Shown: positions 2,762 to 50,291 of the stretch, in pieces | Layout: each line of letters begins with the position of its first letter | How positions within the stretch are numbered: the stretch's first letter is position 1 | From: Verrucomicrobiota bacterium | Lineage (GTDB): Bacteria > Verrucomicrobiota > Verrucomicrobiia > Chthoniobacterales > JAFAMB01 | Assembly: GCA_019247695.1 (NCBI GenBank) | Contig: JAFBAP010000049.1 | Span: 1 to 64,000, forward strand | Direction of reading: 5' to 3' | DNA length: 64,000 nucleotides | Notes under the pieces: generated by a model | Seen by the model: only the letters and a program-made list of their open reading frames with translations | Databases searched by the model: none | Told to the model about the DNA's origin: nothing | Translations under genes and position numbers: made by a program

Positions 2762-2896
2762 GAGGCGGTGATTCTAAGCGCTCGTGTTCACGGCGCGAGC
2801 CGGAATTTACCAGCCCTCAGGCGTTACGAGGTGCGGCGGCGCTTCCAAATTTGAACCTCCATGGCCGTCGAAATAGTATCGGCAAACTTTTGCGCG

Positions 2897-5802: not shown

Positions 5803-6097
5803 CGGCGGGCGCTTAGGACGGCACCCCACCAGCCTGAATTCCCATGGACAAGCATTCAGCTAACCCGGCACCCGCGGAGATGGCCGCCGGAGCGTCAGGT
5901 GCGGCGGGCGTTATCTAAAAGGCTGCGCTGATAGGTAATACCATTTCGACGGCCACGGAGGTAAATTTTTGTCTTGCTTCCCAGGTGCCCTGCGAGTGTT
6001 AGTCCCCTGCCAGTGTTACACCTTTCAGACCGTATAAACGGTCCAGGCCCAACGGGCCGGCAGACGGTTTGATGGCCTGAAGGGCCAAAGGAACTTA

Positions 6098-6219
6098 GCC
6101 CAGGGTTTACCCCATTGCCATTTAGTTAAGGGCGGCAGGCCGGGCGTGGCCTTCGTCCCGCAGGGACGAAAGCAGCCCCACTCGCCCCTAACTAAATGGC
6201 ATTGGAGTTTACCCTGGGA
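6098..6219. repeat. Long nested hairpin inside repeat copy A
   Basis: The arms 6112-6134 and 6183-6205 carry the ATTTAGTTA core and pair at 21 of 23 positions. Pairing continues outward with CCCAGGGT on both sides. The loop itself holds a second small hairpin, TCGTCCCG-CAG-GGACGA. The same structure occurs in copy C at about 26470-26590. Such a stem could fold in DNA as a cruciform or in RNA as a processing or termination structure; which of these applies is unknown. Confidence 0.75.
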
Positions 6220-6239
6220 CGGCGTTTTTCCTACGGCTC

Positions 6240-6296
6240 AGCCCTGAAGGGGCGGCAGAAACCGTGAGCAACACCCTCTGCCGCCCCTTCAGGGCT
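6240..6296. repeat. Perfect 20-bp inverted repeat inside copy A
   Basis: Positions 6240-6259 (AGCCCTGAAGGGGCGG plus CAGA) and 6277-6296 are exact reverse complements with a 17-base loop. Each arm also contains a short internal palindrome, CCCTGAAGGGG. The matching structure in copy C lies at about 26612-26668. No T-run follows, so it does not look like a classical terminator. Confidence 0.8.
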
Positions 6297-6672
6297 CGAT
6301 CGTGATTTGACGGTTACCCAGGGTAAACCCTGGGCTATGTTCTGCCGGCCCATTGGGCCTAAGGCATTTCAACCAAGTACGGAGCATCCTCCGGCACCGG
6401 CACTCCCTGAGCCGAAATTCCCATGGGCTATGTTTTCCCGGCCCGTTGGGCCTATGACCAATTTAACCGGCTACGGAGTACCCTCCGGCGCCGACACCCC
6501 CCCTGAGTCGACATTCTATCGGGCTAACCGTCTGAATGGTACAAGCGCAAAACTCGCCGGCGGCCGAAATCCGTAGCGGCCCGGGACCGGTCTCCCTGCC
6601 GCCGCCTGGAGTTAACAATATTGTCATCTTGCTGTTAACGCTTTGTAAGAAGCCGCGCTTAAACGTGCTGGC

Positions 6673-8428: not shown

Positions 8429-8600
8429 TACCATTCAGACAGTTATCTCGGTAGAATGTCGGCTAACAGGGGTATCGGCGCCGGAGGATGCTCCGCACCT
8501 TGTTGAACGGGTCTTACACCAATTCAGATAGTTACCCTGGTGGAATTTCGACTGGGTTTCAGCCCCGAAGGGGTGGCAGAACATAGCCCAGGGTTTACCC
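8429..8600 (-). repeat. Partial repeat element, copy B (reverse orientation)
   Basis: The stretch starts with TACCATTCAGACAG (8429-8442), which matches the reverse complement of the right end of copies A and C. The modules GGTAGAATGTCGG, GCGCCGGAGGATGCTCCG and AGCCC-CGAAGGGGTGGCAGAA then follow in reverse order. A second copy of the terminal module begins near 8517 (ACCAATTCAGATAGTTA). It stops at CCCAGGGTTTACCC, just before the stop codon of the hybrid kinase gene. The left-hand half of the element is missing. Confidence 0.7.
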
Positions 8601-10556
8601 CTAACCTTCCCCCGCTGCGCTCGGCGTGAGTTCCGCCAAGACCGTTTTCAAGACGGCCGGATCCACGGGCTTGACCAGGTGCCGAGCGAACCCCGCCTCC
8701 TGGGATTTGCGCCGGTCTTCCGCCTGGCCCCAGCCGGTCACCGCAACCAGGACCGTGTCCTTCGTTTCCGGCCGTTGTCGCAGGGCGCGGCCCACTGCGT
8801 GGCCGTCCATACCGGGCAGCCCGATGTCGAGGAGCACCAGGTGCGGTTTAAACTGCGGGGCCAGCGCCAGGGCGGTGGACCCCTCATAGGCCACCTGGGC
8901 GGCATGGCCAGCCAGGTGCACCACCGCGGCGAGGGCGTCGGCCGCGTCCACGTTGTCGTCCACGACCAACACGCGAAGCTGGGCCGGACCGCTCGCACGG
9001 GCCGTTTGCTCCGCAGCGGCGTCGGGCGCCTCGGGCGTCTGGGGCGTCTGGGGGTTTGGGGCCACCGGCAGCCGCACCACAAACTCGCTGCCTTTGCCTC
9101 GCCCGGGGCTGAAGGCATCCACCTTGCCGCCATGCAGTTCGATCAATTGCTTCACCAAGCTTAAGCCGATCCCTAAGCCCCCGACGGAGCGGTCCAGGCG
9201 CCGGTCCGCCTGCACAAACAGGTTAAAGATCCGCGGCAGCATCATGGGCTCGATGCCGATGCCCGAATCCTGCACCCGCACGGTGGCTTCGGCCTCCGTC
9301 GACGTGAGCCTCACCCAGATCCGGCCCCCCGGGTTGGTGTACTTGGCGGCGTTGTTCAGCAGGTTGCCCAAGGCCTGCTCCAGCCGCGTGCGATCCCCAA
9401 AGACCCGGACAGGCTGGGCCGGGAGGCTCACGCTGAGCTGCTGCTGGCGTTCCTCGCAGTCCAGCCGGGCAGCTTCCACGGCGTGGTCCACCACGGTCTC
9501 CAGGTCGAGCTGTTCTTTGCGCAGCCCGAACCGGCCGCGGTTGAGGCGCGCCAAGTCGACCAGGTCATCCAAGAGCCGGGCCATGTGTTCGATCTGCCGC
9601 CGGGTCATCACCCGCGCCCGCCCCAGCGTGGCGGCGTCGGCGCCGGGCGCCTCCAGGATGTGCATGGCGTTGCGAATCGGGGCCAGCGGATTGCGCAGCT
9701 CATGGGCCAGCACTGCCAGGAACTCGTTTTTCTGGCGGTCCATTTCCTCGAGCATTTCGATTTTGCGCCGTTCGGTCAGGTCCCGGGTGACTTTGGTGAA
9801 GCCTTGCAGGACGTGCTCCTTATCGTGGATGGCCGTGATGACCACGTTGGCCCAAAATCGGCCGCCGTCCTTGCGAACGCGCCAGCCTTCGTCCTCCACG
9901 CAGCCATGTTCCAGTGCCTGGCGCAGTTCCCAGGCCGGCTTACCGGCCTCCAGGGTTTCCGGCGGGTAGAAAATGGAGAAATGCTTTCCAAGGATTTCGT
10001 GCCGCTGGTAACCTTTGAGCCGTTCGGCACCGCGGTTCCAACTGATGACGTAACCCTCCGGGTCGAGCATGAAGATCGCGTAGTCTTGGACACCCTCGAC
10101 CAACATCCGAAAGCGCTCCTCGCTTTGGCGCAACGCCTCTTCGGCTTGTTTGCGCTCGGTCAGATCCCGGGTAATTTTTAGAAAGCCGCGCAGGGCGCCG
10201 GTGGGTGATTTCAGGGCTGTGATGGTCACGTTCGCCCAGAAGCGCGAGCCGTCTTTGCGCAACCGCCAGCCTTCGTCGTTGAAGTGGCCGGTTTGGGCCG
10301 CCGTCTTGAGCTCGTATTCCGGCCAGCCGCGTTCGAGGGGCTCCGGCGGATAAAAAAGGGAAAAGTGTTTGCCGAGGATATCCTCGGCCTTATAGCCCTT
10401 AAGCCGTTCGGCGCCTGCATTCCAACTGGCCACGTAGCCCCGCGCATCGAGCAGAAAGATGGCATAATCCTCGATGCCGGCCACGATCTCGCCGAAATGC
10501 TCCTCGGCGGCTGGCGGTAAAGGCGAGGCGTCTTCAGGTCCGGACGGGTTCGACAT
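8601..10556 (-). CDS. Soluble hybrid histidine kinase, PAS-PAS-HisKA-HATPase-REC
   Basis: The 651-aa protein lacks membrane segments. It has two PAS domains (about residues 20-140 and 147-265) that are close duplicates of each other, sharing motifs such as ERLKGY, ILGKHFS.FYPPE, DEGWR.RKDG and FWANV. Next comes HisKA with phospho-acceptor His285 in LAHELRNPLAPI, then HATPase_c with N-box NLLNNAAKYTNPGG and G-box GGLGIGLSL. A C-terminal receiver domain carries Asp577 in LLDIGLPG and Lys629. It probably senses a cytoplasmic signal through its PAS pockets and passes phosphate to its own receiver, then to an unseen phosphotransfer partner. No response regulator with a DNA-binding domain is adjacent. 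Confidence 0.92.
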   Translation of the reverse strand: MSNPSGPEDASPLPPAAEEHFGEIVAGIEDYAIFLLDARGYVASWNAGAERLKGYKAEDILGKHFSLFYPPEPLERGWPEYELKTAAQTGHFNDEGWRLRKDGSRFWANVTITALKSPTGALRGFLKITRDLTERKQAEEALRQSEERFRMLVEGVQDYAIFMLDPEGYVISWNRGAERLKGYQRHEILGKHFSIFYPPETLEAGKPAWELRQALEHGCVEDEGWRVRKDGGRFWANVVITAIHDKEHVLQGFTKVTRDLTERRKIEMLEEMDRQKNEFLAVLAHELRNPLAPIRNAMHILEAPGADAATLGRARVMTRRQIEHMARLLDDLVDLARLNRGRFGLRKEQLDLETVVDHAVEAARLDCEERQQQLSVSLPAQPVRVFGDRTRLEQALGNLLNNAAKYTNPGGRIWVRLTSTEAEATVRVQDSGIGIEPMMLPRIFNLFVQADRRLDRSVGGLGIGLSLVKQLIELHGGKVDAFSPGRGKGSEFVVRLPVAPNPQTPQTPEAPDAAAEQTARASGPAQLRVLVVDDNVDAADALAAVVHLAGHAAQVAYEGSTALALAPQFKPHLVLLDIGLPGMDGHAVGRALRQRPETKDTVLVAVTGWGQAEDRRKSQEAGFARHLVKPVDPAVLKTVLAELTPSAAGEG

Positions 10557-26354: not shown

Positions 26355-26921
26355 TATCATTTCGACGGCCATAGAGGTAAAAGCTTGTCTTCCCTCCTGG
26401 GTGCCGTGCCGGTGTTACACCTATAAGACCGTATAAGCGGTCCGGGCCCAACGGGCGGGGAGATTTTAGCCCAGGGTTTCACCCCACTGCCGTTTAGTTA
26501 AGGATACAAGGCCGGGCGTGGTCTTCGTCCCGGAGGGACGAAAGCATGCCACCTCGCCCTTAACTAAAGGGCAGTGGGGTTTATCCTCAGGAGGCGCTTT
26601 CGCCTTGACCCAACCCTAAAGGGGCGGCAGAACCCGCGAGCGACGCCTTCTGCCGCCCCTTCAGGGCTCGATCGTGATTTGACGGTTACCCAGGGTAAAC
26701 CCTGGGCTATGGTCTACCGGCCCGTTCCGCCTACGCCTATTGTCGGGACGGTTGAGCGGTCTTTGCCCTGGAGGGGCGGCCGGAAAGGAGCCCCTCTGGG
26801 GCAAAGACCGCTCAGCCAACTTGGAAACCGGTCTAAGACCGGTTCAATCAGGTACGGAGCATCCTCCGGCACCGGCACCCCCCAGAACCGGCATTCTACC
26901 AAAATAACTATCTGAATCGTA
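26355..26921 (+). repeat. MITE-like intergenic repeat, copy C (567 bp)
   Basis: It starts with TATCATTTCGACGG (26355-26368) and ends with CTATCTGAATCGTA (26908-26921). The modules follow copy A in order: GAGGTAAA..TTGTCTTCC, GACCGTATAAGCGGTC, CCCAACGGGC, AGCCCAGGGTTT, the ATTTAGTTA-type hairpin with TCGTCCCG, the CCCC-TTCAGGGCT hairpin, TTACCCAGGGTAAACCC, and GTACGGAGCATCCTCCGG near the right end. The terminal inverted repeats have decayed to about 8 of 14 matches. Unlike copy A, it holds an extra hairpin at 26753-26814. Confidence 0.75.
26753..26814. repeat. Extra 25-bp hairpin inserted in copy C
   Basis: Arms 26753-26777 (TGAGCGGTCTTTGCCC onward) and 26790-26814 pair at 23 of 25 positions around a 12-base loop. 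Copy A lacks it at the equivalent place. It is followed by GGTCTAAGACCGG, another small palindrome. The hairpin could itself be a small inserted palindromic repeat. Confidence 0.75.
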
Positions 26922-46906: not shown

Positions 46907-47558
46907 GGACCAGCGGCCGACGAAGCGGGCCGTGTTCATCAATTGCCCTTTCGATGCGGCTTATCAGCCGATGTTTGACGCCATCGTCTTTGCCGTCCAC
47001 CGGTGCGGTTTCCTGGCCCGGTGCGCCCGCGAGGACGGCGACAGCGACCAGGTGCGGATCGACAAGCTCGTGCAAATGATCGCCGAGTGCGAACTCGGCA
47101 TCCACGACTTGAGCCGGGTCGACACCGAAGGCCGGCTGCCGCGCTTCAACATGCCCTTTGAACTGGGGCTTTTCATCGGCGCGCAACGCTACCGGCCGGA
47201 AGGCCAGCGGCCTATCGGGGGCTTGGTCCTCGAAGCCGAACCGTACCAGCACCAGCGCTTCCTTTCAGATTTGGCGGGCAACGACTTTGAGGCGCACCAC
47301 GGCAGCCCGGCCGAGGCGGTCAACGCCGTTCGAAAATTCCTGGCCGGCCATTCCCAGGCGCCGGTGCCCGGCGGCCGCCAGATCCTCCAAGACCACGACT
47401 TTTTTCGTAAAATCGTGCTGCCCGTGCTGCTTGAAGGCCGTCAGCAGGACCTCGAGTCGCTGACTTTTCGCGAGTTTCGGGATTACGTGCAACAGGTGGT
47501 TGACCGGCAAGTGGCCGAGCGGGGTTCTCGGTCTGCGCCCCCATCCACCGGCCCTTAA
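46887..47558 (+). CDS. Predicted TIR/nucleoside-deoxyribosyltransferase-like protein
   Basis: The 223-aa protein starts with GTG inside the DUF2188 gene. Residues 15-150 form a Rossmannoid domain: AVFINCPFD (16-23), VFAVHRCGFLARCA, IAECELGIHDLSRVD (65-79), then FNMPFELGLFIGA with Glu92. A CPFD start, a DLS strand and a final FELG glutamate resemble nucleotide- or NAD-cleaving domains of the TIR/deoxyribosyltransferase type. The C-terminal 60 residues are helical. The family appears scattered in bacteria and is usually called hypothetical. The stop codon TAA falls inside a fragment of the intergenic repeat. A role in defence is speculation. Confidence 0.6.
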   Translation: MPPGPSEDQRPTKRAVFINCPFDAAYQPMFDAIVFAVHRCGFLARCAREDGDSDQVRIDKLVQMIAECELGIHDLSRVDTEGRLPRFNMPFELGLFIGAQRYRPEGQRPIGGLVLEAEPYQHQRFLSDLAGNDFEAHHGSPAEAVNAVRKFLAGHSQAPVPGGRQILQDHDFFRKIVLPVLLEGRQQDLESLTFREFRDYVQQVVDRQVAERGSRSAPPSTGP

Positions 47559-47575
47559 CTAAATGGCAGTGGACT
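47552..47575. repeat. Fragment of the intergenic repeat (copy D)
   Basis: CCCTTAACTAAATGGCAGTG starting at 47552 equals one arm of the ATTTAGTTA hairpin seen in copies A and C. It is followed by GACTAAACCC, reminiscent of the next module. The TAA at 47556-47558 ends the preceding gene. Only this arm is present. Confidence 0.65.
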
Positions 47576-47636
47576 AAACCCGAGCAAGGCAAGCGTCAGG
47601 GAAGCGCCACGGTGTGGGGATGACTGAGCCATGAGT

Positions 47637-49995: not shown

Positions 49996-50291
49996 TACCA
50001 TTCAATTGCGACCGGGTTTCAGCCCCGAAGTGGCAGGAGAACCTAGCCCAGGGCTTTACTCGACTGCCATTTAGTTAAGGGCCGCTGGATGGGGGCGCTT
50101 TGGTCCCGGAGCGACGCCTTATGCCGCCCTTTCAGGGCTCGATCGAGGGAGGAGTGCACGCCCTGGATCAACCCCTGGGCTAGGGTCTCCCGGCCCGTTG
50201 GGCCTAGACCGTTTATACGGTCTGATAGGTTTAACTCCGGCACGGCACCTGGGAAGGAAGACAAGATTTTACCTCCATGGCCGAAACGGTA
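49996..50291 (-). repeat. MITE-like intergenic repeat, copy E (296 bp, reverse, internally deleted)
   Basis: Read in reverse, it begins TACCGTTTCGGCCATGG and continues GAGGTAAAATCTTGTCTTCC, GACCGTATAAACGGTC, GGCCCAACGGGCCGGG, AGCCCAGGGG. Later come the CCCTTAACTAAATGGC arm and the right-end-type TACCATTC at 49996. So both termini of copies A and C are present while much of the middle is shortened. This shows that the element is a unit found in both orientations. Confidence 0.7.

Follow-up and report, generated by a model that had tools for sequence, protein, structure and literature searches.

A composite family of gene-less mobile repeats in a Verrucomicrobiota bacterium, with a probable REPIN-like Acido-Lenti-1 core inside MITE ends

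Hairpin-rich repeats were characterized in a 64,000-nucleotide stretch of DNA from a Verrucomicrobiota bacterium (GenBank assembly GCA_019247695.1, contig JAFBAP010000049.1, positions 1 to 64,000), here called the window. The repeats are probably a composite non-autonomous mobile family of at least three layers: an outer MITE, a REPIN-like core of AL hairpins and a further hairpin, Bhp, in the AL loop. The copies share termini and a target duplication, and their interiors follow an inverted grammar. AL-ended Y1 units occur in several genera, and one such unit is boundary-exact in two genomes of the same genus. In the explanation that we favor, the outer MITE, with imperfect terminal inverted repeats (TIRs) of about 14 bp, would insert at CTNAG, produce a 3-bp TNA duplication and be mobilised in trans. 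The inner inverted AL pair around the Chp hairpin would be a REPIN-like remnant of a Y1 (HUH, PF01797) transposon, which in its intact form would have the transposase gene between the Chp arms. Bhp would be a further hairpin element that inserted in the AL hairpin loop. The nest may move as a whole by means of the outer ends, and the copies would mostly be passengers that are tolerated downstream of genes.

A preliminary description of the window had proposed that three copies, A, C and E, have common ends with imperfect TIRs, that copies B and D are fragments and that no protein is encoded, and each of these points held. BLAST of the window identified A, C and E as genuine and mutually alignable, with 75% identity between A and C over 424 bp (E=6e-87), and tied the fragments B and D to them. 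The termini agree to the base, reading TAA/TACC...GGTA/CAA in A, TTA/TATC...CGTA/TCA in C and CTTA/TACC...GGTA/TAAG in E, where a slash marks the element boundary, and the TIRs of about 14 bp read TACCATTTCGACGG and TACCATTCAGACRG. No sign of a gene was seen in A, C or E; the overlapping ORFs are mechanical only.

Copy A (5939-6541, plus strand) is a full composite in the order L, AL(-) with Bhp in its loop, Chp, AL(+) and R, and its R/AL part is tandemly duplicated. It is flanked by TAA and CAA, a single mismatch to the TNA duplication. The left TIR, TACCATTTCGACGG, occupies 5939-5952 (plus), and the L module occupies 5940-6005 (plus; nhmmer, 64.2 bits). Between L and AL(-), at 6028-6058, small hairpins GACCGTATAAACGGTC and GGCCCAACGGGCC were read from the sequence, with no strand assigned. 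The AL(-) arm (6074-6112, minus; nhmmer, 44.2 bits, with a weak Rfam match of 18.6 bits) is Acido-Lenti-1-like, and its loop is split by the Bhp hairpin element (6106-6211, no strand), which has TTTA direct repeats at 6106-6109 and 6208-6211. The Chp hairpin, AGCCCTGAAGGGGCGGCAGA...TCTGCCGCCCCTTCAGGGCT, follows at 6240-6296 (no strand); at another locus, L186, a Y1 gene lies between its two arms. The AL(+) arm (6317-6360, plus) matches Rfam RF01687, Acido-Lenti-1, at 37.9 bits (gathering threshold 37). A second, partial AL(+) at 6422-6453 (plus; 25.7 bits) belongs to the tandemly duplicated right part, a 78% direct repeat of 96 bp. The R module (6474-6541, plus; 59.5 bits) ends in the right TIR, CCGTCTGAATGGTA, at 6528-6541.

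Copy C (26355-26921, plus; flanks TTA and TCA) is also a full composite, with one extra long hairpin at about 26750-26817. Copy E (49996-50291, minus; flanks TTA and TAA) is shortened and has both termini; the sub-terminal part of its R side is a variant that the R model did not detect. Copy B (8429-8600, minus) joins AL(-) to an R end, which has its terminus at 8429 and CTTA as flank, and to another R-like part, and copy D (47534-47581, plus; 27.8 bits) is half of a Bhp hairpin. An L-end fragment at 2847-2878 (minus; 87.5% over 32 bp, 18.6 bits) was absent from the preliminary description. The window also holds an 81% direct repeat of 64 bp (9831-9893 and 10215-10277) that is unrelated to the family and lies inside or beside a long ORF.

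When copy A was used as the query, at least 153 matching pieces were found in its own genome (5.19 Mb in 191 contigs). The 15-base terminal pattern ATACCATTYMGAYRG gave 183 matches with at most one mismatch in these 5.19 Mb, compared to 0 for the reversed control. L and R profiles were derived from 1.74 Mb of this genome and later run on 2.07 Mb of it. Conserved end columns run inward from TACC.../...GGTA; outside them only TNA plus a preferred C and G are conserved, giving the flank pattern C-TNA-(element)-TNA-G and the target CTNAG. A target duplication, a check that the preliminary description had named, was found: the 3-bp flanks were identical in 17 of 49 terminus-to-terminus copies, compared to a mean of 6.6 on shuffling of the right flanks (p<=1e-4, 20,000 trials). 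No enrichment was seen in these 49 copies for the other duplication lengths tested. The duplication is imperfect, with at least one mismatch, in 32 of the 49, and A, C and E themselves are imperfect. Terminus-to-terminus copies range from 89 to 986 bp and have no transposase gene inside. With its coincident imperfect TIRs of about 14 bp, its duplication of fixed length and its lack of genes, the outer layer is a MITE.

A TNA target with a 3-bp repeat is given for the IS1031 group of IS5 (PMC12016507). The outer layer has this TNA target with an exclusive 3-bp duplication; membership in the IS1031 group is not claimed, since neither of the two PF13340 loci is bounded by the same TIRs. A TA-only (IS630-like) duplication was a first idea and was dropped because the flanks show C-TNA-G and only length 3 is enriched. 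The TNA at the ends resembles stop codons, and stop-codon targeting was also rejected, with exact coincidence with a gene stop in 4 of 44 copies (simple ORF caller). On contig C59, right of 12827, the flank of a copy matches C25, C27, C15, C8, C54 and C56 at 7-base shifts, indicating a dispersed 7-base tandem repeat in this genome.

The preliminary description had proposed a search for an autonomous transposase that shares the outer ends; none was found among families PF01609, PF13340 and PF13359 or the end pairs listed in this incomplete genome. The two PF13340 loci are not bounded by outer-type ends. The inspected TIR pairs lying 0.7-4 kb apart hold ordinary genes and tandem copies, with no plausible transposase. 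None of the DDE loci L179-L184, L227 and L228 is bounded by the TIRs, and L183 adjoins an inserted copy; there (L183:90-156, the start of C170) the copy abuts a DDE_Tnp_1 gene fragment, as if inserted into a transposase gene. In view of this negative result the mobiliser is inferred: it would act in trans and be a DDE transposase, either of the IS5/IS1031 type or with a matching target preference. A search of the genome for empty sites by joined flanks found none, and for three sites compared with nine relatives only parts of single flanks matched, with no empty site. Exact scans of a genome contig collection with the L-end and AL patterns, and of a viral contig collection with the L-end pattern, gave no match.

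The core has a fixed and inverted order: L, AL(-), hairpins, AL(+), R. AL is the inner neighbor of 65 of 87 L ends and 83 of 117 R ends, and as direct inner neighbor it is in the minus orientation beside L in 65/65 cases and in the plus orientation beside R in 83/84. Modules in random order, which the preliminary description had named as the outcome that would contradict it, were not seen. Its claim that the internal modules keep the same order stands for their orientation, but the kind and number of modules differ between copies. The orientation rule follows from the symmetry of the core, an inverted pair in its own right, and alone is no proof that core and ends move together. The AL module matches Rfam RF01687, Acido-Lenti-1, above the gathering threshold, with the 37.9 bits of copy A and up to 50.6 bits elsewhere. 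Acido-Lenti-1 was described in 2010 as a candidate structured RNA (PMC2864571), and Rfam files it as an sRNA gene. AL is present in hundreds of copies, in both orientations, and across the phylum. As a multi-copy inverted hairpin pair, the AL core has the arrangement of a REPIN. Apart from Acido-Lenti-1, no group II intron or other known RNA matched Rfam above threshold, and the microRNA-like Rfam matches were below threshold and are chance matches on the Chp palindrome.

The core was linked to a transposase at the own-genome locus L186, where two Chp arms enclose an IS200-like Y1_Tnp gene of 154 aa; AL(-) lies upstream of it and AL(+) downstream, with an L end farther out. In G001, the genome of another species in the genus, the Y1_Tnp Pfam model gave one match, which is flanked as in L186 and has no MITE ends. 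The alignment of the two units, of about 730 bp, spans them from one outer AL hairpin to the other (1343-2072 vs 1337-2065); beyond these hairpins no collinear match was reported and the flanks are unrelated. Y1 genes were surveyed with the Pfam model (PF01797) in 12 genomes, mostly AL-rich ones. Inverted AL pairs bracket Y1 genes at L199, L211, L212, L216 and L220, and AL copies lie near the Y1 loci L200, L204 and L221. The RAYT-type arrangement, a Y1 gene flanked by the same repeats, is present at L186, L205, L199, L211, L212, L216 and L220, and no AL pairs were found at three DDE control loci. Among Y1 genes that carry the YxxxQxxHH motif, 13 of 20 have detectable inverted repeats on their flanks, compared to 1 of 11 other Y1 genes; 11 of the 20 motif-bearing genes have no Rfam- or profile-detected AL close by. 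Of 145 genomes from the phylum, 20 have both AL and the L186 protein, 5 have AL only, 5 have the protein only and 115 have neither (Fisher 1.3e-15, a statistic that ignores the relatedness of the genomes). Because the genomes are related and the survey of Y1 flanks covered mostly AL-rich ones, such p-values overstate the significance; neither the boundary-exact unit nor the inverted placement rests on them.

The L186 protein has the motifs DHVH, WQ and YVANQAQHH (YxxxQxxHH), which are the set of subclass 1.2, a subclass reported with no REPs, a Cyanobacteria/Bacteroidetes distribution and no IS properties (PMC6006769). Assignment to IS200/IS605 subclass 1.1 (W[TS], Y[IV]ENQ) was rejected on the WQ and YVANQAQHH motifs, and the protein scored 53 bits against the curated NCBIfam model of IS200, below the cut-off of 55. 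Either subclass 1.2 has REPs in this phylum, or these Y1 proteins are a sister group. Since the motifs fit a subclass without a reported REP, the core is said here to work like a REPIN, outside the described RAYT groups. We infer that the Y1 protein acts on AL. Within the freely readable literature, the accessible text of the 2010 Acido-Lenti-1 description contains no AL-Y1 link, which may exist elsewhere. Remnants of L186-type Y1 genes were also seen in this genome at C176:5878-6058 and C93:5030-5116; in the former, the matches to residues 2-28 and 117-149 are adjacent, as after an internal deletion.

The third layer is seen in copy A, where Bhp splits the loop of the AL hairpin CCCAGGG-TTTA-CCCTGGG and TTTA remains on each side. 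These Bhp/AL-loop junctions recur. At C112:24466-24901, the position of Chp is occupied by a different long hairpin (CTAAGGCGTCACGCCTGTACGCCC...), which is nearly perfect and of which portions are found again in other copies. By eye, C27:40869-41483 contains about six concentric inverted layers. The family and its hairpins account for about 2.5% of the sampled sequence, in which copies are overrepresented. At C84:79772-80025, an AL pair without MITE ends lies in the middle of another palindrome (ccggtttt...aaaaccgg), so that the pair itself may have landed in one. Four copies (C112:40873-41452, C132:28817-29227, C48:4151-4701 and C95:9424-9852, partly in L003, L045, L008 and L039) have extra flanking sequence in common, the left flank in 4/4 and the right flank in three (not C132). 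These flanks resemble mutual inverted repeats, GGGTCAGTTGTCAAAGTTGTTGGCATTGAT and GGGTCATTTGTCAAAGTTGTGGTCATTAAT, and are a possible outermost mobile layer.

The preliminary description had read the family as a single non-autonomous MITE with nested hairpins. Its non-autonomous mobility is borne out by the genome-wide termini, the CTNAG target and the 3-bp TNA duplication, but its unity is not. One MITE family with one autonomous parent, in which AL and the other hairpins are plain interior without mobility of their own, would account for AL being the inner neighbor of most ends (65/87 for L, 83/117 for R) and for the many sites, marked by target duplications, at which full copies keep one order. 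However, AL pairs are present without MITE ends, 16 clusters that lie away from contig ends being without both L and R; AL-Chp-AL is also seen without MITE ends, and L-R copies of 89-99 bp exist without most of the core. AL is also phylum-wide, whereas searches of relatives yielded no L or R ends, and the G001 AL-Y1 unit has no MITE ends. These observations point to a core that is a separate REPIN-like element, and a single MITE is in our judgement unlikely.

Folding and gene context bear on two further explanations. The folds of copies A and C are far deeper than those of shuffled sequences (z of -19 with 20 shuffles and -12 with 100), and double-change cells in AL number 40, compared to a shuffle mean of 14 and maximum of 24. 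Pair-preserving change is slightly above shuffles in L (19, against a shuffle mean of 8 and maximum of 16) and not above them in Chp (8 vs mean 8.0), Bhp or R. The compensating differences that had been noted in the stems therefore hold for AL but not for Chp. The AL covariation, the deep folds and the sRNA entry in Rfam would all suit a functional structured sRNA that lies close to Y1 genes either because mobile elements picked it up or because it regulates the transposase. However, a nested palindrome is expected to fold deeply anyway, a DNA hairpin read by an HUH protein yields the same covariation, and AL stands as inverted pairs at both ends of Y1 units and in hundreds of copies in both orientations; we regard the sRNA explanation as very improbable. 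Under a simple ORF-based gene model, convergent-gene intervals hold 21 of 44 copies (22% expected) and divergent regions hold 2 of 44 (25% expected), as would be seen if the structured repeats, whatever their origin, were kept for a role in termination or mRNA stability at mRNA 3' ends. Such effects have been reported for REPs and MITEs (PMC3733652). The convergent bias is also consistent with purging of insertions near promoters, which predicts the same pattern, and no conserved orthologous position was seen in relatives. A 3'-end role would be an effect rather than an origin and is compatible with the composite explanation; as an account of the family, we regard it too as very improbable.

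The composite family resembles several known systems in part. Like REPIN/RAYT systems (PMC3116915; TnpA_Y1 classes, PMC6006769), the AL core has inverted hairpin pairs in many copies per genome and one intact Y1 transposase gene with these hairpins on its flanks. Unlike them, the AL-linked Y1 protein has subclass 1.2 motifs, the hairpin is Acido-Lenti-1 and the pair sits inside a TIR element. AL passes the threshold of RF01687, yet it acts here as the paired terminal repeat of a mobile unit, in contrast to its original description as a candidate structured RNA (PMC2864571). The outer layer shares short TIRs, the absence of genes and the 3-bp TNA duplication with bacterial MITEs and the IS1031 group of IS5 (PMC12016507), but its TIR differs from the published IS1031-group example (GAACCTGTC...) and its interior consists of other mobile hairpins. 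BIMEs and REP-targeting IS (PMC1525189, PMC2817692), judged from the accessible parts of these papers, likewise present mosaics of palindromes and elements inserted in the palindromes of others. In contrast to what is accessible there, the inserted parts in this family are gene-less, concentric hairpins, and the stack has TIRs and target duplications.

More broadly, Acido-Lenti-1 may be the end repeat of phylum-wide, subclass 1.2-like Y1 transposons and not an RNA gene, and hairpin elements may land in one another's tips, forming concentric nests that are carried by an unrelated outer MITE of the DDE type. This wider proposal is tentative and, in our estimation, falls somewhat short of probable. 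It would give an orphan Rfam family from 2010 a concrete proposed identity. The subclass 1.2-like Y1 proteins, for which neither REPs nor IS properties are described (PMC6006769), would gain a repeat partner and with it a testable substrate. One bacterial genome is also shown to hold at least three kinds of gene-less mobile hairpin in nested stacks.
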